This document shows, in pieces, positions 3,574 through 13,398 of a DNA stretch of 64,000 bases. Source of the DNA: Streptomyces sp. NBC_00483 (lineage in GTDB: Bacteria > Actinomycetota > Actinomycetes > Streptomycetales > Streptomycetaceae); NCBI RefSeq assembly GCF_036013745.1, contig NZ_CP107880.1, positions 868,001 through 932,000 on the forward strand, written 5' to 3'. The notes under the pieces are model-generated. The model was not told where the DNA came from. It did no database searches and was given only the letters and a program-made list of their open reading frames with translations. The position numbers and the translations under genes were made by a program. The stretch's first letter is position 1; the number at the start of each line of letters is the position of its first letter.

Positions 3574-4872
3574 ATGAGCGAGGGAGACTGTACGGCGTTC
3601 GGTGAGCTGGTCACCGAGGCCGAGGCGGAGGCTCTGGTACGGGGCATCTGCTTCAAAACCGGACCACCGCGCAAGGTCGGGGTCGAGCTGGAATGGATCG
3701 TGCACGAGCCGCGGCCCCTGCTGAAGCCGTGGCACCCCTTACCACCCGAACGACTCGATGCGGCGTACGTCGCACTGCGCGCCCTGCCTCTGAGCTCGGC
3801 GCTCACCGTGGAACCCGGCGGGCAGCTGGAACTCAGTTCGCTCCCCGCCTCTTCCCTCACCGAATGCGTCTCGGCCATGCGGGCCGACCTGACCGCCGTG
3901 CGCGCCGCGCTCCGCGGCCACGGACTCACCCTGTCGGGACACGGCACCGACCCGTGGCTCCCCCCGCGGCGCGTTCTCCATCAACCCCGTTACGACGCCC
4001 TGGAGGCGTCACTCGACCGTGCCGGGCCCGCCGGGCGCTCCATGATGTGCTCGTCCGCGTCCGTGCAGGTGTGTCTGGACGCGGGGCACGAGGAGCCGGG
4101 CCCGCAGGGGCTCGGCAGGCGCTGGCGGCTCGCGCATCTGCTGGGCGCGGTCCTGGTGGCCGCTTTCGCCAACTCGCCGATGCTGTCCGGGCGCCCGACC
4201 GGCTGGCGCTCCACGCGGCAGTTGCTGTGGGAGCGGATCGACGTGGGCCGCTCCGGCGGCGTACCCCTCGACTTCGATCCGCGCGAGGCATGGGCACGGC
4301 ACGTGCTCGACGCGCCCGTGATGTGCGTGCGTGCCGAGGACGGGCCGTGGCAGGTGCCGGACGGGCTGACCTTCCGCGAGTGGGCGCGCACGGGTGAGCC
4401 GCGGCCGCCGGCCCACTCGGATCTCGACTACCACCTGACCACCCTCTTCCCGCCCGTGCGCCCGCGCGGACACCTCGAACTGCGCATGATCGACGCGCAG
4501 TCGGGCGACGACGGGTGGCTGGTGCCGCTCGCCGTCACCACCGCCCTGTTCGACGACCCGCAGGCCGCCGAGACCGCGTACCGCGCGGTCAAGCCGCTCG
4601 CGGAGCGCGCGGGCCCGCAGCCCGCTCCGCACAACCCGCTGTGGCACGACGCGGCGCGGCTCGGCCTCACCGATCCCGAGCTGCGCGAGGCCGCCACGGC
4701 CTGCTTCACGACGGCGCTGGAAGCACTGCCGAGGATCGGCGCGGGCCCGGACGTGCGGCAGGCGGTCGCGGACTTCACGCGCCGCTATGTCGTCCGCGGC
4801 CGCTGCCCCGCCGACGACGTGCTCGACCAGCTCACGCGACAACCCGCTCAGGGGAGGACGGTCCGGTCATGA
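3574..4872 (+). CDS. egtA: Ergothioneine biosynthesis glutamate-cysteine ligase EgtA
   Basis: Makes gamma-glutamylcysteine, the sulfur donor used by EgtB in actinobacterial ergothioneine synthesis. The 432-residue protein has GCL-type landmarks: the substrate-binding GVELEWIVHEPRPLLKPWHP near residue 35, PGGQLELSS, the SMMCSSASVQV strand and the ELRMIDAQ strand. ATG 3574 is supported by an AGGAGG eight bases upstream. It is the first gene of a four-gene operon and overlaps egtB by four bases (ATGA). The family is related to plant-type glutamate-cysteine ligases; the operon context decides the assignment. Confidence 0.95.
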   Translation: MSEGDCTAFGELVTEAEAEALVRGICFKTGPPRKVGVELEWIVHEPRPLLKPWHPLPPERLDAAYVALRALPLSSALTVEPGGQLELSSLPASSLTECVSAMRADLTAVRAALRGHGLTLSGHGTDPWLPPRRVLHQPRYDALEASLDRAGPAGRSMMCSSASVQVCLDAGHEEPGPQGLGRRWRLAHLLGAVLVAAFANSPMLSGRPTGWRSTRQLLWERIDVGRSGGVPLDFDPREAWARHVLDAPVMCVRAEDGPWQVPDGLTFREWARTGEPRPPAHSDLDYHLTTLFPPVRPRGHLELRMIDAQSGDDGWLVPLAVTTALFDDPQAAETAYRAVKPLAERAGPQPAPHNPLWHDAARLGLTDPELREAATACFTTALEALPRIGAGPDVRQAVADFTRRYVVRGRCPADDVLDQLTRQPAQGRTVRS

Positions 4873-6218
4873 CCGCTGAGGAGAATGTCACCACGGACCC
4901 GGAGGCGCTTCGCGGCCGCGCCGCGGACGCACTCGAGGCCGCCCGGCGCCGCACGACACTGCTGACGAGCTGTGTCGAAGAGGGCGAACTCACCGCCCAG
5001 CACTCGCCGTTGATGTCACCGCTCGTCTGGGATCTCGCGCACATCGGGAACCAGGAGGAGCAGTGGCTGCTGCGCGCGGTCGCGGGCCAGGAGGCGATCC
5101 GCCCCGAGATCGACCCGCTGTACGACGCCTTCGAGCACCCGCGCTCGGAGCGCCCGAGCCTGCCGCTGCTCGCGCCGCATGAGGCGCGCGGCTATGCGGC
5201 GGACGTCCGCGGGCGCGCCTTCGATGTGCTGGAGAAGGCCTCGTTCGAGCCGGAGGGGATGCGGAGTCTCACCCGCTCGGGCTTCGCCTTCGGGATGATC
5301 GCCCAGCACGAGCAGCAGCACGACGAGACGATGCTGATCACGCATCAGCTGAGGAAGGGCGGCGCGGCGCTCACCGCGCCCGACCCGGAGCCCCGGGCGC
5401 GTCCGTACGACGGTCCCGCCGAAGTCCTCGTCCCCGGCGGGCCGTTCACGATGGGCACGACGGCCGAGCCGTGGGCCCTGGACAACGAGCGTCCCGCGCA
5501 CACCCGCCTGGTTCCGCCGTTCCACATCGACACGACGCCGGTGACGAACGCCGCGTACATGGAGTTCGTCGAGGAGGGCGGCTACCGGGAGGAGCGCTGG
5601 TGGGCGCCGGCCGGCTGGGCGATGGTGCGCGAACACGGCCTCGAGGCGCCGCTGTTCTGGCGCCGCGAGGGCGGGCAGTGGCTGCGCAGGCGGTTCGGGG
5701 TGACCGAGCCCGTGCCGCCGGACGATCCGGTGCTGCACGTGAGCTGGTACGAGGCCGACGCCTATGCGCGGTGGGCGGGGCGCCGCCTGCCGAGCGAGGA
5801 GGAGTGGGAGAAGGCGGCCCGCCACCACCCGGCCTCGGGCCGTTCGATGCGCTATCCCTGGGGTGACACGGACCCGACGCCTGACCGCGCCAACCTGGGC
5901 CAGCGCCACCTGCGGCCCGCCACGGCCGGCAGCTATGAACTCGGCGAATCCCCGCTCGGCGTACGGCAGTTGATGGGCGACGTGTGGGAGTGGACGTCGA
6001 GCGACTTCCTGCCCTACCCGGGGTTCGTGGCGTATCCGTACCGCGAGTATTCGGAAGTGTTCTTCGGGTCCGACCACAAGGTGCTGCGCGGTGGTTCGTT
6101 CGCCGTGGACGCGGTGGCGTGCCGGGGCACGTTCCGCAACTGGGACCATCCGATCCGGCGGCAGATCTTCTCCGGGTTCCGCACGGCGTGCGACGCCGAG
6201 CCACTGGAGCGTGCCTGA
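4869..6218 (+). CDS. egtB: Hercynine oxygenase EgtB (iron sulfoxide synthase)
   Basis: A 449-residue non-haem iron enzyme that couples hercynine to gamma-glutamylcysteine with O2 to give the sulfoxide. The N-terminal DinB-like helical domain carries the expected iron ligands: a His in LAHIGNQEEQW and an HxxxH pair in AQHEQQHDE. The C-terminal half is an FGE-sulfatase (formylglycine-generating enzyme-like) domain with GPFTMGT, RLPSEEEWEKAARH, MGDVWEWTSSDF and VLRGGSFA. The start codon overlaps the egtA stop, so translation is probably coupled. The use of a gamma-glutamyl donor fits the adjacent EgtA and EgtC. Confidence 0.96.
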   Translation: MTAEENVTTDPEALRGRAADALEAARRRTTLLTSCVEEGELTAQHSPLMSPLVWDLAHIGNQEEQWLLRAVAGQEAIRPEIDPLYDAFEHPRSERPSLPLLAPHEARGYAADVRGRAFDVLEKASFEPEGMRSLTRSGFAFGMIAQHEQQHDETMLITHQLRKGGAALTAPDPEPRARPYDGPAEVLVPGGPFTMGTTAEPWALDNERPAHTRLVPPFHIDTTPVTNAAYMEFVEEGGYREERWWAPAGWAMVREHGLEAPLFWRREGGQWLRRRFGVTEPVPPDDPVLHVSWYEADAYARWAGRRLPSEEEWEKAARHHPASGRSMRYPWGDTDPTPDRANLGQRHLRPATAGSYELGESPLGVRQLMGDVWEWTSSDFLPYPGFVAYPYREYSEVFFGSDHKVLRGGSFAVDAVACRGTFRNWDHPIRRQIFSGFRTACDAEPLERA

Positions 6219-6973
6219 TGTGCCGTCATCTTGCCTATCTGGGGCCGCCGGTACCGCTCGGCGAGGTCGTCGACGCGCCGCCGCACAGCCTGTTCCGGCA
6301 GTCCTGGGCGCCACGCAGGCAGCGCCACGGCACGGTCAACGCCGATGGATTCGGGGTGGGTTGGTACGCGGACGGCGACCCGGTGCCCGCCCGCTACCGC
6401 CGCGCGGGACCCATCTGGGGCGACGCGGCCTACCAGGACCTGGCCCGCGTGGTCCGCTCCGGGGCGCTGCTCGCGGCGGTCCGTGACGCGACGCTGGCCG
6501 GGGCGGACGGGGAGGCGGCAGCGGCCCCGTACGCGACCGGGCCCTGGCTGTTCAGCCACAACGGGGCGGTACCGGGCTGGCCGCAGTCCCTGACCTCTCT
6601 GACACCCACCCTGCCGCCGACGGACCTGCTCTCCATGGAGGCCCGCTGCGACGCGGCGTTCCTGTGGGCGCTCGTCCTGCACCGGCTGCGGGCGGGCGAC
6701 GAGGAGGCGCAGGCGCTCGCCGACACCACCCTGGAGATCGCCGAGGCGGCACCCACCGCCCGCCTCAACTTCCTGCTCACCAACGGCGAGACGATCACCG
6801 CCACGGCCTGGGGCGACACCCTGTGGTACCGCACCGAGCCGGGCCGCTCCGTCGTCGTCGCCTCCGAGCCCTACGACGACGATCCGCACTGGATCGAGGT
6901 CCCCGACCGCACGCTGCTCGCGGCGAGCCGCACCGACGTCCTGTTGACCCCGCTCAAGGAGCCCTCCGCGTGA
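6218..6973 (+). CDS. egtC: Ergothioneine amidohydrolase EgtC
   Basis: A class II glutamine amidotransferase-like enzyme of 251 residues that removes the gamma-glutamyl group from the EgtB product. The sequence begins MCRHLAYLG, placing the nucleophilic Cys at position 2 so that Met removal exposes it, as this family requires. The NADGFGVGWYADG and LFSHNGAVPGW segments are typical N-terminal-nucleophile hydrolase strands. Its ATG overlaps the egtB TGA by one base (TGATG), and its stop overlaps the egtD start. Confidence 0.95.
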   Translation: MCRHLAYLGPPVPLGEVVDAPPHSLFRQSWAPRRQRHGTVNADGFGVGWYADGDPVPARYRRAGPIWGDAAYQDLARVVRSGALLAAVRDATLAGADGEAAAAPYATGPWLFSHNGAVPGWPQSLTSLTPTLPPTDLLSMEARCDAAFLWALVLHRLRAGDEEAQALADTTLEIAEAAPTARLNFLLTNGETITATAWGDTLWYRTEPGRSVVVASEPYDDDPHWIEVPDRTLLAASRTDVLLTPLKEPSA

Positions 6974-7944
6974 GCCCGTTCCGCATGACCCGCACCCTGC
7001 CCGAGGACGCCACCGACGCAGCCCTTCGGGCCGACGTCCAGCACGGCCTGACCAGCTCCCCGAAGACACTGCCGCCCAAGTGGTTCTACGACGCGCGCGG
7101 CAGCGAACTCTTCGACGAGATCACCCAGTTGCCCGAGTACTACCCGACCCGCGCCGAGCGCGAGATCCTTATCGCGCGCGCCCACGAGATCGCCGCGGCG
7201 ACCGGTGCGCGCACGCTCGTCGAGCTGGGCTCCGGCTCGTCCGACAAGACGCGCCACCTCCTGGACGCGCTCACCGACCTCACGACGTACGTGCCCGTGG
7301 ACGTGAGCGAGAGCGCGCTGCGCGGCGCGGCGGACACGCTCCTCGCCGAGCGGCCCGCGCTCGACATCCACGCCATGGTCGCCGACTTCACGGCCTCGTT
7401 GGAGCTGCCGGAGACACCCGGGCCGCGCCTGGTCGCGTTCCTCGGCGGCACGATCGGCAATCTGCTGCCGGACGAGCGGTCGGCCTTCCTGACGGCGGTG
7501 CGCGGCCTGCTCTCCCCCGGCGACTTCTTCCTCCTCGGCACGGACCTGGTCAAGGACGAGGCGACGCTGGTGGCGGCGTACGACGACGCGGCGGGCGTCA
7601 CGGCCGCGTTCAACAAGAACGTGCTGTCCGTGATGGACCGCGAGCTCGGCGCCGATTTCCGTCCCGACGCGTTCGAGCACGTCGCCCTGTGGAACGCCGA
7701 GTGCGAGTGGATCGAGATGCGGCTGCGCTCCACCACGGCGCAGACCGTGAAGATCCCGGCCCTCGACCTCGAGGTCGACTTCGCGGCGGGCGAGGAGGTG
7801 CGCACGGAGGTCTCGGCGAAGTTCCGCCAGGAGGGCGTGAAGGCGGAACTTCACGACGTGGGCCTTGAGTTGGGCCACTGGTGGACGGACGAGGAGGGAA
7901 GGTTCGCGCTGTCGTTGAGCAGGGCGTCGGCCGGGCCCTTCTAG
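6970..7944 (+). CDS. egtD: L-histidine N-alpha-methyltransferase EgtD
   Basis: Trimethylates histidine to hercynine with SAM, the first committed step of ergothioneine synthesis. The 324-residue protein has the EgtD pattern: PKWFYDARGSELFDEIT near residue 40, the SAM-binding motif TLVELGSGSSDKTRHLL, AFLGGTIGNLLP, and LLGTDLVKD. GTG 6970 overlaps the egtC stop (GTGA). The final PLP lyase EgtE is not in this window; in Streptomyces it is often encoded elsewhere. The stop codon lies inside a short tandem repeat. Confidence 0.96.
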   Translation: MSPFRMTRTLPEDATDAALRADVQHGLTSSPKTLPPKWFYDARGSELFDEITQLPEYYPTRAEREILIARAHEIAAATGARTLVELGSGSSDKTRHLLDALTDLTTYVPVDVSESALRGAADTLLAERPALDIHAMVADFTASLELPETPGPRLVAFLGGTIGNLLPDERSAFLTAVRGLLSPGDFFLLGTDLVKDEATLVAAYDDAAGVTAAFNKNVLSVMDRELGADFRPDAFEHVALWNAECEWIEMRLRSTTAQTVKIPALDLEVDFAAGEEVRTEVSAKFRQEGVKAELHDVGLELGHWWTDEEGRFALSLSRASAGPF

Positions 7945-9576: not shown

Positions 9577-9579
9577 ACC

Positions 9580-9632
9580 CTGTCTTCAAACTCCCGTCTG
9601 CCCGACGGCGTTGACGGGAGTTCGAGAACAAG
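9580..9632. terminator. Bidirectional terminator between tetR and the MFS gene
   Basis: The arms AACTCCCGTC (9589-9598) and GACGGGAGTT (9613-9622) are perfect complements around a 14-base loop, and the stem continues outward with mismatches to about 9580 and 9632. It sits three bases after tetR and just before the convergent MFS stop, so it can end both transcripts. Confidence 0.8.
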
Positions 9633-9634
9633 GC

Positions 9635-10987
9635 CTAGTGGCCCGCGGGCTCCGCGGCCGCACCGGTAGCGGACCTGCCCTCTGGGACCGCGGACTTGGG
9701 CGGCTTGTCCGTTCCGGCGTCGGCCTGGCGGCTCCGCGTGCGGTGCCGCAGCAGGGCCAGCGGGGTGAGGAGTACGGCCAGGAGGCCGCCGCCCAGGCCC
9801 AGGGCGGGGAAGCCGGCGCCCGCCACCACCGCGCCGGAGGCCGCCCCGCCCGTGGCGCCCGCGAGGGAGATGCCGACGTCGACGAGGCCCTGGGTGCGGG
9901 CCCGGGTGGCCACGGGGAGCGCGTCCGTGATGAGGGCGGTGCCGCTGACGAGGCCGAAGTTCCAGCCGAGGCCCAGCAGGACCAGGGCCGTGGCGAGCGC
10001 GGCCACGGAGTGCGGCGGCGCCAGGGCGGCGAGCGCACCCGCCGCGAGCAGCGTCGCCCCGGAGGCCGCGGCCAGCCACAGCCGTCCGATGCGGTCGACA
10101 AGGAGTCCCGTGAGCGGGGACGGCAGATACATGGCACCCACGTGCAGGGCGATGACCAGGCCCGTGGCCTGGGTACCGTGCCCGTGGGCCTGCATGTGGA
10201 CCGGTGTCATCGTCATGACAGCGATCATCACGAGCTGGGTGAGGACCATGACGGCGGTGCCGGTGGCCACGCCGCGGGTGTCCGTACGTCCTGCGTTTCC
10301 GGTGGCCGACACCCGCTCCGCCGCCTGCTCCTCGGCCGCTCGCTCGCGCGAGAGCAGCAGCGGGTCGGGGCGCAGGAGGACGGCCAGGGCCACGGAGGCC
10401 GCACCGTACGCGACCGTGGCGAGCAGGAAGGGGCCCGCGAGGCGCGGTATGCCCCAGGCGTGCGCCCAATTGCCCGTCGCGTGGACGAGGTTGGGGCCGA
10501 TGACCGCCCCGAACGTCGTCGCGAACAGGACGGTGCTGACCGCCCGGCCGCGCCGCGCGGGCGAGGCGAGGTCGGCCCCGGCGTACCGGGCGAGGAGGTT
10601 GGCGGCCGTGCCCGCGCCGTACACCAGCAGGGAGACGAACAGCAGCGGCACGCTGCCCGCGACCGCGGCGAGCACGACGCCGAGGCTGCCGACCGCGCCG
10701 GTCCCGTACCCCAGGGCGAGTCCGGGGCGGCGGCCCCACCGCTGGCAGAGCCGCCCGATGCCCACCGACCCGAGCGCGGCGCCCCCGGTGAACAGCGCGC
10801 TGGGCAGCCCGGCAAGACCCGTGGAGCCCAGCATCTGCTCGGCGAGCAACGCCCCCACGGTGATGCCTGCGGCGAGGCCCGCCCCGCTCAGGGCCTGGCA
10901 GAGGACGAGGACGGCCAGCACCCGCCGCTGCGCGGGGTGTTCGGGCGTCGGCCGTCCGGCCTGCGGGGACCGTGCCGCAGAGGTCAC
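9635..10987 (-). CDS. MFS transporter, putative exporter of the peptide cassette
   Basis: A 450-residue major-facilitator protein with about 12 hydrophobic segments. The loop 2-3 motif is the degenerate GRLCQRWGRRPGLALG, and the second half has a matching GLLVDRIGRLWLAAASG. A charged, Ala/Glu-rich linker (RERAAEEQAAERVS) joins the halves, and the C-terminus is a hydrophilic tail. This pattern is usual for drug or metabolite efflux proteins. GTG 10987 overlaps the stop of the preceding gene (GTGA), so it is the last gene of the minus-strand operon that starts with the repeat peptide. I infer export of the modified peptide or self-resistance. A perfect-stem terminator follows. Confidence 0.85.
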   Translation of the reverse strand: MTSAARSPQAGRPTPEHPAQRRVLAVLVLCQALSGAGLAAGITVGALLAEQMLGSTGLAGLPSALFTGGAALGSVGIGRLCQRWGRRPGLALGYGTGAVGSLGVVLAAVAGSVPLLFVSLLVYGAGTAANLLARYAGADLASPARRGRAVSTVLFATTFGAVIGPNLVHATGNWAHAWGIPRLAGPFLLATVAYGAASVALAVLLRPDPLLLSRERAAEEQAAERVSATGNAGRTDTRGVATGTAVMVLTQLVMIAVMTMTPVHMQAHGHGTQATGLVIALHVGAMYLPSPLTGLLVDRIGRLWLAAASGATLLAAGALAALAPPHSVAALATALVLLGLGWNFGLVSGTALITDALPVATRARTQGLVDVGISLAGATGGAASGAVVAGAGFPALGLGGGLLAVLLTPLALLRHRTRSRQADAGTDKPPKSAVPEGRSATGAAAEPAGH

Positions 10988-11598
10988 GCCGCGCCCATCG
11001 GCTCGGCGGGGGCGCTCGGCGCCATCGGTTCGAGCGCCGCGATCTCGTCCAGCGGCATGCCCAGGTGCTGGTGCAGGTAGCGCACGATGGTCCAGTGCGG
11101 CAGCGCACCCTCGTCGAAGGGCCCGAACTCCCGGCAGTGCAGCGGGATCCAGCGCAGCGCCTCCTCGGCGACCTGCTCGCGGCCCGGCTCGGCCTGGTAG
11201 TCCTCGTAGGCGATGCTGCGATGGTGGATGAAGTACCGGCCCGGCAGGCGCTCCTCGCACAGGGCGACGTACTCGCGGGTCTGCAGGATCAGGTAGTGCC
11301 AGATCTCGTCAATGGCCTGCTCGACGGGGAGGAAGAGGCCACTGAGCCGCTCGCGGTACTTCGAGACGAGGTAGAGGTAGCGGAGGCACTCGGTGATCTG
11401 CCGCTCCACGTAGGCGCGTTCCTCGCCGGTCTCCTCCTCGCCGGTCTCCTTCACGAAGTACGCGACCACCTCGCCGTGCAGGTCGTGCCCGAGCAGTTCG
11501 CGAAGGTCCTCACCGGCGACGGTCGCGGCGGGCGCCTCATGCGGGTCGTTCTGGTTGCCCATGTGGCTCTGGTTATCCACGTGGTTCTGGTCGTTCAC
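10984..11598 (-). CDS. Unknown protein with a WH...HH motif, DUF1399/GRDP-like
   Basis: A 204-residue soluble protein I cannot name with confidence. The central segment AIDEIWHYLILQTREYVAL, then C and, about 11 residues on, FIHHRSIAYEDY, resembles the WHxxxL...Y...H pattern of glycine-rich-domain (DUF1399) proteins. The conserved His, Cys and Tyr could bind a metal. The first 30 residues are His/Asn/Gln-rich and likely disordered. The C-terminus, ALPHWTIVRYLHQHLGMPLDEI, looks like a helical domain. It lies 77 bases after the adenylate-forming enzyme and overlaps the MFS gene by four bases, so it belongs to the peptide operon. A catalytic or carrier role in maturation is an inference. Confidence 0.6.
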   Translation of the reverse strand: MNDQNHVDNQSHMGNQNDPHEAPAATVAGEDLRELLGHDLHGEVVAYFVKETGEEETGEERAYVERQITECLRYLYLVSKYRERLSGLFLPVEQAIDEIWHYLILQTREYVALCEERLPGRYFIHHRSIAYEDYQAEPGREQVAEEALRWIPLHCREFGPFDEGALPHWTIVRYLHQHLGMPLDEIAALEPMAPSAPAEPMGAA

Positions 11599-11675
11599 GT
11601 CGTTCCCCTCAGGTGCTTCCCTCGGTGCTTCCCGGGTACGTCCCGGCCCTCACTCCCCCGCATGGGGGCTCCTCC

Positions 11676-12968
11676 TCAACTCCTCGCCAGCCAGGCATAC
11701 TTGCCGGAGGCGCCGATGGGGATGTGGTCCCGGTGTTCGACGCGGCAGGCGCGCCCGGTCAGCGCGGAGACGGAGCGCCCCAGTGCTTCGGACTCGTCCG
11801 TGCCGAGCGGCTTGCCGTCGAAGGTGGTGCAGCGGAGCACGGCCGACTGTGGCCCACTCCCCTCCGACTCACCCTCCAGCAGCAGCAGTTGGTGCACGAA
11901 GACGCGGGGTGAGGCGGCGCCGACCCGCTCGTCCAGGTCGCCCGCCGCGACGGGCCCGTCCGGCCCGTCGAGGAGCTCCTTCTCCCGGCCGCAGAACGAG
12001 ACGATCTTCTCGGGGTCCGGCGAGCCGTCCCGCGTACGGGCGCAGTCGCCGGAGCGATAGCGGACCAGCGGCATGTGCGGGTTACGGACGCTGGTGACGA
12101 TGAGGGAGTAGAGGGTGCTGCCCGGGGTGACGGGGAGGAGCTCGACGCTCATCCCCTCCAGGTACGGGCGGTAACTGCCGGTGCGGTCGCTGTAGAAGAG
12201 GTAGCCGAGCTCGGTGCTGCCGAAGAGGTCGACGACCGGGCAGTCGAAGCGGCTCTCCAGGAAGCGGCGCACGTTCCTCGGCGTGTACTCGTACGCGGTG
12301 ATGATGCTCGCCGGGCGCGGGAACGCCCCCGGGTCCTCCCACAGTCCGGCGTCCTCGGCATGGCGCACGAGGTGCGCCAGGTGGTAGCCGGAGCAGTCCA
12401 GGTGGTAGCGGCCCTCGGGGTGCGAGGCGGCGATCGCGCGCAGCTCGCCGAGCATGCGCTCGACATCGGCACGCTCCCACAGGGCGGGATCGAGCCGCAG
12501 GTTGAGGTAGACGGTGCGCTCGTCCAACCGCCGGTCCTCCAGGGAGGGTTCGGCGTCCGGGGTACTCGCGTGGCCGTCGTTCCCGTCCTGCCCGCCGCGC
12601 TTCTTCGCGTTGACGCGGGCCACGTGTTCGGTCGCCAGGACGGTGGTGAGGGAGGCGCGTCGGCAGCCGTCCCGCCAGGTGTGCGCGATGTCGGGGTGCT
12701 CGCTCCACAGCCGGTAGTAGGAGCGGAGCAGGAAGTAGGGGGGTCGGATGAGCTGCATCCGCGCGTGGTTGGTGCCGGTGGACAGGACGTACTCCGCCTC
12801 GCCGGCCGCGAGGGCGGCCTCCAGCGGCGGCGTCATCCAGTTGTCCGGGAATCCGCGGGCGATCTCGGGCTTCTCCAGCACGGGGAAGTGGCCGCGCGCG
12901 ACGGAGTCGCGGTAGATCGGTATGTCCTTGACCTGCTCTATGACGTCGGCCGTCGGCTGACCGTCCAT
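11676..12968 (-). CDS. Adenylate-forming enzyme (phenylacetate-CoA ligase/ANL superfamily)
   Basis: A 430-residue ANL-superfamily enzyme that should activate a carboxylate as an acyl-AMP. Visible core motifs: the P-loop-like VLSTGTNHARMQL (A3) near residue 63, VVDLFGSTELGYLF (A5), the ribose-binding YRSGD (A7), the hinge GREKELLDGP (A8) and the C-terminal lysine loop IPIGASGKYAWL (A10). It is therefore apparently complete, although the A3 loop lacks the usual second Gly. There is no PCP or CoA-specific neighbour; instead a 50-residue repeat peptide lies directly upstream on the same transcript. Possible roles are activating the peptide C-terminus or attaching an acid to its Cys, Ser or Lys side chains. 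ATG 12968 has GAGGA upstream. Confidence 0.8.
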   Translation of the reverse strand: MDGQPTADVIEQVKDIPIYRDSVARGHFPVLEKPEIARGFPDNWMTPPLEAALAAGEAEYVLSTGTNHARMQLIRPPYFLLRSYYRLWSEHPDIAHTWRDGCRRASLTTVLATEHVARVNAKKRGGQDGNDGHASTPDAEPSLEDRRLDERTVYLNLRLDPALWERADVERMLGELRAIAASHPEGRYHLDCSGYHLAHLVRHAEDAGLWEDPGAFPRPASIITAYEYTPRNVRRFLESRFDCPVVDLFGSTELGYLFYSDRTGSYRPYLEGMSVELLPVTPGSTLYSLIVTSVRNPHMPLVRYRSGDCARTRDGSPDPEKIVSFCGREKELLDGPDGPVAAGDLDERVGAASPRVFVHQLLLLEGESEGSGPQSAVLRCTTFDGKPLGTDESEALGRSVSALTGRACRVEHRDHIPIGASGKYAWLARS

Positions 12969-13044
12969 GGTCGTCCTCGGAGGATCGGGAACGTGGGGGG
13001 TGAGGCGGGCGGGGCGCTCACTGTCGCCCGTACGCCGCCTGGAG

Positions 13045-13083
13045 GCGGGCCGGGCCGGTCCTGTCGGTCCGACCGCGGCCCGC
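13045..13083 (-). promoter_or_regulatory. Stem-loop between the precursor peptide and modifying genes
   Basis: The arms GCGGGCCG (13045-13052) and CGGCCCGC (13076-13083) pair perfectly, and an inner GGTC/GACC pair (13057-13060 with 13071-13074) extends the structure. It lies in the 189-base gap between the peptide stop and the adenylate-forming gene. Such hairpins often let a small abundant peptide be made in excess over its enzymes. There is no U-tract, so it may be an RNA-stability or partial-attenuation element. Confidence 0.5.
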
Positions 13084-13157
13084 TCCGGGGACCGCCGCTG
13101 TCACCTGGGCCGGTGTTCAGCCGCAGCCCTTGATCATGCGACCGGGTGCGTCCTGCT

Positions 13158-13310
13158 TCAGGAAATGCAGCCGGTCTTCGGGGCGGCGCTGATGCAGCCC
13201 GCCTTGGGGGCCGCGCTGATGCAGCCGTCCTTGGCGGCCGTCGCCGAGTTGGCGGCGACCCAGCCCTGCCAGTTGGCGTCCTGGGCCATCTTCTTGACGA
13301 GCTTCTCCAT
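13158..13310 (-). CDS. Putative RiPP-like precursor peptide with three GCIS repeats
   Basis: A 50-codon gene. Residues 1-26 form a possible leader with a basic amphipathic start (MEKLVKKMAQDANWQGW). Residues 27-50 are a nine-residue unit K-x-G-C-I-S-A-A-P repeated twice, then cut after GCIS at the C-terminus. Cys falls at positions 30, 39 and 48, the only cysteines. ATG 13310 has GGAGG five bases upstream. A near-consensus promoter precedes it, and the same transcript would carry an adenylate-forming enzyme, a WH...HH protein and an exporter. Leader plus repeated core plus tailoring genes is the classic layout of a ribosomally made, modified peptide. No lanthipeptide, lasso, thiopeptide or radical-SAM enzyme is nearby, so the chemistry is unknown. 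Confidence 0.7.
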   Translation of the reverse strand: MEKLVKKMAQDANWQGWVAANSATAAKDGCISAAPKAGCISAAPKTGCIS

Positions 13311-13368
13311 GTCGACCTCCGTAATGGGTGGGGACAGCGGTACGACCAAGATCCGTACCGCCCGGCCG

Positions 13369-13398
13369 AGCGTAAAAGGGGCCCCAAGAAAATGTCAA
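13369..13398 (-). promoter_or_regulatory. Strong promoter of the peptide operon
   Basis: On the minus strand, the perfect -35 TTGACA (13393-13398) and TACGCT (13369-13374) are 18 bases apart. Transcription would start near 13362, about 52 bases before the peptide ATG. A consensus -35 is uncommon among the genes of this window and suggests high-level expression. Confidence 0.75.

Follow-up and report, generated by a model that had tools for sequence, protein, structure and literature searches.

Several described systems place a small ribosomal peptide beside a dedicated enzyme. Bufferins are Cys-containing examples. Their small metal-chelating precursors are reported to be paired with dedicated MNIO enzymes (PMC12452194). 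In pearlins (TglA, AmmA), a ribosomal peptide is the building site, e.g. 3-thiaglutamate is reported to be built on the 50-residue TglA (PMC9016710 and PMC9303977). Pearlin pathways require a PEARL (LanB-like) ligase and aminoacyl-tRNA. The PaaK-type benzoxazole ligases NatL2, AjiA1, and ClxA act, as far as seen, on small aryl acids and without a peptide partner. Here, we describe a cassette from Streptomyces sp. NBC_00483, found within a stretch of 64,000 nucleotides (contig NZ_CP107880.1, positions 868,001–932,000; hereafter the window). It encodes a Cys-repeat peptide, an ANL adenylate-forming enzyme (hereafter ANL), a small protein named after its WH...HH motif, and an MFS transporter (Table 1). 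The cassette resembles bufferins in joining a small precursor to an enzyme, and pearlins in a ribosomal peptide that may serve as a building site; however, neither MNIO enzymes nor PEARL-type ligases are among its four proteins and, unlike the benzoxazole ligases, its ANL comes with a peptide.

From the sequence data, acylation of the peptide at its repeats is the most likely reading. The fuller statement, i.e. that the cassette would yield a ribosomal peptide modified by enzymes, belonging to a class new to the literature matches listed and resembling ribosomally synthesized and post-translationally modified peptides (RiPPs), with an acyl-AMP passed to the repeats, we consider about evenly balanced between right and wrong. 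No description of the cassette appears among those literature matches (titles and abstract starts, with most subscription papers outside the scope), and cassette terms are not found in the main text of the decRiPPter paper (PMC7794033).

The evidence starts with the distribution of the genes. ANL was sought in 392 Streptomyces genomes, and 77 of these have any match: 48 full-length proteins, 1 C-terminal fragment (G303), and 28 weak, partial matches to other proteins. The 47 full-length relatives are 68–77% identical to the window ANL, and all 48 genomes with a full-length ANL (the window's included) carry the peptide, i.e. about one in eight Streptomyces species examined (48/392) has the cassette. 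Flanks were read at 48 loci (L032–L079, the 47 full-length relatives plus G303); the peptide lies upstream of ANL in 47/47 and WH...HH downstream in 46/47, with the remaining locus (L048) ending on its contig, while no peptide was found in G303. A converse search with a peptide profile matches 54/392 genomes at E up to 0.01, of which 49 are strong and five weak (E 4e-4 to 5e-3). Forty-eight of the strong matches are the ANL genomes, and in the last (G081) the sequence ends 30 nt after the peptide.

A wider sampling gives the same picture. Among 394 genomes of the class, 7 match, including 6 Streptomyces (the window's among them) and one from another family, whose locus has the peptide, ANL and WH...HH (61% each), and no clear MFS. 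Together with this locus, a named-genome scan from which 80 of 108 relatives were kept forms a set of 81 loci, with 81 peptides and 80 WH...HH genes (L171 ends on its contig). At least 26 of these 81 loci have an ANL core-identical to the first set, and the counts of the 47- and 81-locus sets are not independent. Carriers include S. griseus, S. rimosus, S. noursei, and S. lydicus, as well as Kutzneria viridogrisea and Sciscionella, the latter two having a peptide of two repeats; among the matches listed, the genes are mostly annotated as hypothetical protein or phenylacetate-CoA ligase.

As such, the peptide, ANL, and WH...HH are shown to be inherited as one unit: the three genes stand together in every full-length locus not ending on a contig edge, which rules out unrelated neighbors. 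An earlier sequence-only reading of the window had proposed four minus-strand genes in the standard layout of precursor, enzymes, and exporter. The coordinates bear out the genes and their order, and the first three genes are conserved. The exporter has to be corrected, because MFS is present in only 32/47 full-length relatives (a few loci end at a contig edge) and 57/81 loci, and falls outside the conserved core. That reading also took the peptide to be a substrate or scaffold. This is well supported, because neither of the two conditions that the reading had named as refuting is seen: a full-length ANL is never found without the peptide (47/47 and 81/81 loci have both), and loci retaining the other genes also conserve the frame of the peptide. 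In G303, where ANL is reduced to a C-terminal fragment, no peptide was found. Substrate and carrier are not separable from sequence. It is almost certain that ANL and the peptide are partners.

The peptide consists of a leader (about residues 1–26) and three KxGCIS repeats, whose GCIS stretches are evenly spaced, as the sequence-only reading had noticed, and recur every 9 residues. Invariant columns among 36 aligned peptides include M1, L4, W14, W17, N21, S22, and K27, and L4, W14, W17, N21, and S22 are kept in 81/81. A Lys stands two residues before Gly in 141 of the 142 GC(I/V)S stretches of 47 peptides, and in 238/239 across the 81. Most of the 81 loci have 3 repeats (69), with 2 in 8 and 4 in 4 loci, and some of those scored as 2 have an altered third repeat. 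Altered single repeats include GYIS (L110), GCIC (L108), and GRAS (L148). Two RiPP hallmarks are present: a short ribosomal precursor with a conserved leader and a repeated core (2–4 repeats), and conservation of the precursor gene beside the genes presumed to modify its product. Database matches to Pfam Ldi (linalool dehydratase; 30/36 peptides, best E 5e-4) and NCBIfam chaperone SicP (17/36, best E 0.004) leave the window peptide unmatched and were taken as chance for a short peptide, and a single match to an NHLP-related RiPP (E 0.12) is not significant.

The peptide C-terminus is exactly GC(I/V)S in 76/81, which would suit a C-terminal acceptor. Given that ANL enzymes accept varied nucleophiles, ANL might modify the peptide in some other way, e.g. 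by activating its C-terminus or adding AMP to a side chain. We find this improbable, since the internal repeats are conserved too and the remaining 5/81 have GCISR, GCISKG, or a degenerate repeat at the C-terminus, in loci that retain ANL and WH...HH.

Judged from its codons, the peptide is under selection as a protein. Repeat serines use AGC/AGT 157 times and TCN 82 times, and a switch between these families requires two base changes; because both families are used, it is the amino acid that is conserved. In the leader, 2997/6092 (49%) of single-base codon differences are synonymous in frame vs 2572/7276 (35%) and 1024/6907 (15%) in the other two frames, a test over all pairs of 47 related sequences in which pairs are not independent.

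These data bear on a regulatory explanation, in which the short frame is a leader peptide and stalling at Cys codons controls a terminator hairpin ahead of ANL. A strong hairpin does lie between a short Cys-containing frame and the enzyme gene. The window stretch 13040–13157 has a folding z of −3.10, and the 110 nt that follow the peptide stop have a mean z of −3.3 against shuffles in 48 sequences, with 34 below −2, compared with a coding control at −0.24 (4/47 below −2). For a known RNA element, Rfam gives two matches, both below threshold. We see the slightest of chances for this explanation, because residues irrelevant to stalling are selected (the five invariant leader positions named above, and Lys and Ser in the repeats), the serine codon families switch, the leader is most synonymous in frame, and a scan of the window allowing loops of 3–8 finds no canonical terminator. 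For acylation at the repeats, the hairpin behind the peptide gene could instead hold the peptide message above the enzyme message.

Upstream of the peptide, TTGAC-N17-TTTAC is found in 39/47 relatives and, over 81 loci, is present in 66, with 3 relaxed matches and 12 without. The 15-base promoter-like pattern has a single exact match in the 10.2-Mb source genome, at the cassette, and when two mismatches are allowed it has 5 matches vs 4 for a reversed control. By eye, TTG recurs about every 10–11 bases across the −35 region in many relatives, which suggests a dedicated activator; this spacing is reminiscent of SARP-type sites.

The sequence-only reading called the second gene an apparently complete ANL-type enzyme. 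It is full length, and profile and fold comparison agree on the assignment, while Pfam alone stays below threshold (AMP-binding matches 2 of 24 ANL members at E ≤1, best E 0.026). Compared by profile with solved structures, ANL reaches ClxA at E 5e-7, with AjiA1, NatL2, and PaaK1 weaker. An AlphaFold2 model (mean pLDDT 84, weakest at residues 61–80, the P-loop) is grouped by Foldseek and VIA-align with PaaK-type enzymes across both domains, and ANL is predicted from it to have the two-domain PaaK fold. Identity is low, i.e. 15–20% to NatL2, AjiA1, and ClxA, and 13–16% to the acyl-CoA ligases PaaK1 and BT_0428, from which ANL also differs in falling under the Pfam AMP-binding cut-off.

The PaaK-family core motifs are [FY]GSTE, RYxxGD, and a C-terminal catalytic Lys. 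The FGSTE-type ([FY]GSTE) and RYxxGD motifs are each found in 80/81 ANL, and the looser C-terminal lysine motif GKYxWL in 80/82. The P-loop differs: STGT is kept in 79/81, in an STGTNHARMQ-type form that matches neither the standard consensus SSGTTGKPT nor the P-loop consensus of NatL2, AjiA1, and ClxA. Because this loop is unusual and modeled with lower confidence than the rest of the protein, ANL is only presumed to use ATP. In L038 (= L154) and L044, the ANL and WH...HH genes are fused into a single open frame (572 and 585 residues). An ordinary catabolic PaaK was also considered and is unlikely, as the ANL orthologues form one clear group of 48, with the matches in the other 28 genomes weak and partial.

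The third protein is modeled as all helical (pLDDT 80), and DExWH is retained in 80/80 relatives. A stretch around DExWHxxILxTRxY...C...GRxxHH is common to WH...HH and two distant bacterial proteins, and a few relatives are annotated as glycine-rich domain-containing protein among the matches listed. WH...HH is probably distant kin of the glycine-rich-domain (GRDP-like) proteins, whose glycine-rich tail it lacks in the window. GRDP-like PF07173 itself was rejected (1/26 members, E 0.19, not significant), and WH...HH carries the precomputed Pfam label PF27765. In 296 genomes of the phylum, a WH...HH search gives 4 matches, i.e. the window's and three weak ones. One of the weak matches (L182, 4839–6612) is WH...HH-like and has a cupin-like neighbor; in translations read by eye, the two proteins end in a similar-looking short domain, and no Cys-repeat peptide was recognized nearby when reading the list of open reading frames.

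The sequence-only reading saw none of the established RiPP enzymes in the cassette, and Pfam and NCBIfam scans, covering the four cassette proteins, likewise find no LanM/LanKC, YcaO, lasso, radical SAM, ATP-grasp, or MNIO enzyme. By its gene content the cassette appears to work like a RiPP cassette, with four proteins that include no enzyme of an established RiPP class. For the preferred reading, the N-terminal ~26 residues would be the leader through which the peptide binds the ANL/WH...HH pair. ANL would turn a small, perhaps aromatic, carboxylic acid into an acyl-AMP and, using neither CoA nor a carrier protein, transfer the acyl group to each KxGC(I/V)S repeat. The acceptor could be the Cys thiol first and then perhaps the Lys side chain three residues earlier. 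WH...HH, possibly binding metal via conserved Asp/Glu/His, may aid or complete the transfer, and MFS, where present, would export the product.

The main rival differs in what happens to the acyl group. The peptide may be a reusable carrier, with ANL loading the Cys as a thioester, WH...HH altering the bound group, and a small molecule leaving for export; the peptide would stay behind, functionally like a carrier protein or a pearlin scaffold. PaaK itself has a thiol, that of CoA, as its final acceptor; the multiple equal Cys sites and the variable repeat number suit a multi-site carrier, and TglA provides a known carrier peptide. However, no gene of the trio resembles a releasing thioesterase, no PEARL-type ligase is among the four proteins, and a conserved Lys and Ser in each repeat exceed what a thiol carrier needs. 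We therefore regard the carrier as unlikely, though clearly ahead of the other rivals.

Several observations weigh against acylation of a RiPP-like peptide at the repeats. The sequence does not favor Cys over Lys or Ser as acceptor. ANL scores 10.5 bits against a Pfam AMP-binding cut-off of 29.9, its P-loop is unusual and modeled with pLDDT <50 at residues 61–80, strict GRxxE and strict SGKY are each found in 75/81, and a few loci seem to encode a damaged enzyme (motifs are lost in L165 and L175). Profile and fold searches of structures found no solved relative of WH...HH, whose fold may nonetheless be a known one. Pfam and NCBIfam show no protease in the conserved trio, with one encoded elsewhere possible, and no RRE domain was recognized in the trio, no search aimed at RRE having been made. 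Finally, the promoter-like element is absent from 12/81 loci, and the neighbors described next are absent from 26/78 loci and from the window.

These neighbors are a carbonic anhydrase and/or a SulP transporter, found within ~7 kb of ANL in 52/78 judged rows, the window (none) counted; 4 short-flank loci were left out and short-flank loci with a match were counted, which slightly favors the link. On the same strand, 27 are downstream and 10 upstream; on the other strand, 12 are upstream, 2 upstream close, and 1 downstream. On a quickly built ANL tree, in which many branches are weak, the neighbor states require 16 or more changes, and simple arithmetic puts a single random gene this near in ~0.15% of loci. 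SulP homologues are common in the genus (201/246 genomes, with one 0.7 Mb away in the source genome), so the nearness is not explained by co-restriction to the cassette. A functional link to bicarbonate is possible. A more specific proposal, which we hold tentatively and think more probably wrong than right, is that a PaaK-type enzyme standing alone uses the ribosomal repeat peptide as an acyl carrier or as an acceptor with several sites. Acylation of KxGC(I/V)S would then be ATP-driven, would involve no CoA, carrier protein, or enzyme known from RiPPs, and in many species would be linked to the carbonic anhydrase/SulP pair.

Carbonic anhydrase, a zinc enzyme, as a frequent neighbor, together with the repeated Cys, also raises the idea of a metal-binding or redox small protein, i.e. 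a Cys-containing buffer, with ANL and WH...HH having a different role in the same response. We think this highly unlikely, because the peptides have no CxxC or CxC pair except CIC in L108, and the strict pairing with an adenylating enzyme would be left unexplained.

If ANL acts on the peptide, adenylate-forming enzymes would join the ribosomal-peptide modifiers, and three genes that are easy to express would suffice as a peptide acylation system. More such cassettes can be sought by their KxGC(I/V)S repeat.

Table 1. Features of the cassette and its borders, in window coordinates.
Feature	Position	Strand	Remarks
Promoter-like element TTGAC-N5-CTTGG-N7-TTTAC	13372-13398	minus	~60 nt before peptide start
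Peptide gene, 50 aa	13158-13310	minus	GCIS at residues 29-32, 38-41, 47-50
Two strong RNA hairpins, peptide–ANL spacer	13041-13129	minus	
ANL, PaaK-type adenylate-forming enzyme (assigned), 430 aa	11676-12968	minus	profile and fold comparison
WH...HH gene, 204 aa, small, predicted all-helical protein	10984-11598	minus	
MFS transporter gene, 450 aa, optional member	9635-10987	minus	PF07690, 108 bits
Terminator-like hairpin between MFS and convergent TetR-like gene	9577-9634	minus	

The WH...HH stop and the MFS start overlap by 4 nt (GTGA), confirming the overlap first noticed between the last two genes. The "perfect terminator" reported behind them stands in part: the hairpin is strong (−39.2 kcal/mol, z −6.95), whereas its 25-nt arms are 80% complementary and the terminator scan gives no canonical match. 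The convergent gene facing it is TetR-like, with its translation read by eye. PADLOC matches no defense system at E ≤1. The gene immediately upstream of the cassette, on the same strand, encodes an ABC sugar-type substrate-binding lipoprotein (PF01547, 13466–14755). Further away, the translations at 4515–7944 of the window read like the ergothioneine synthesis enzymes EgtB, EgtC, and EgtD.
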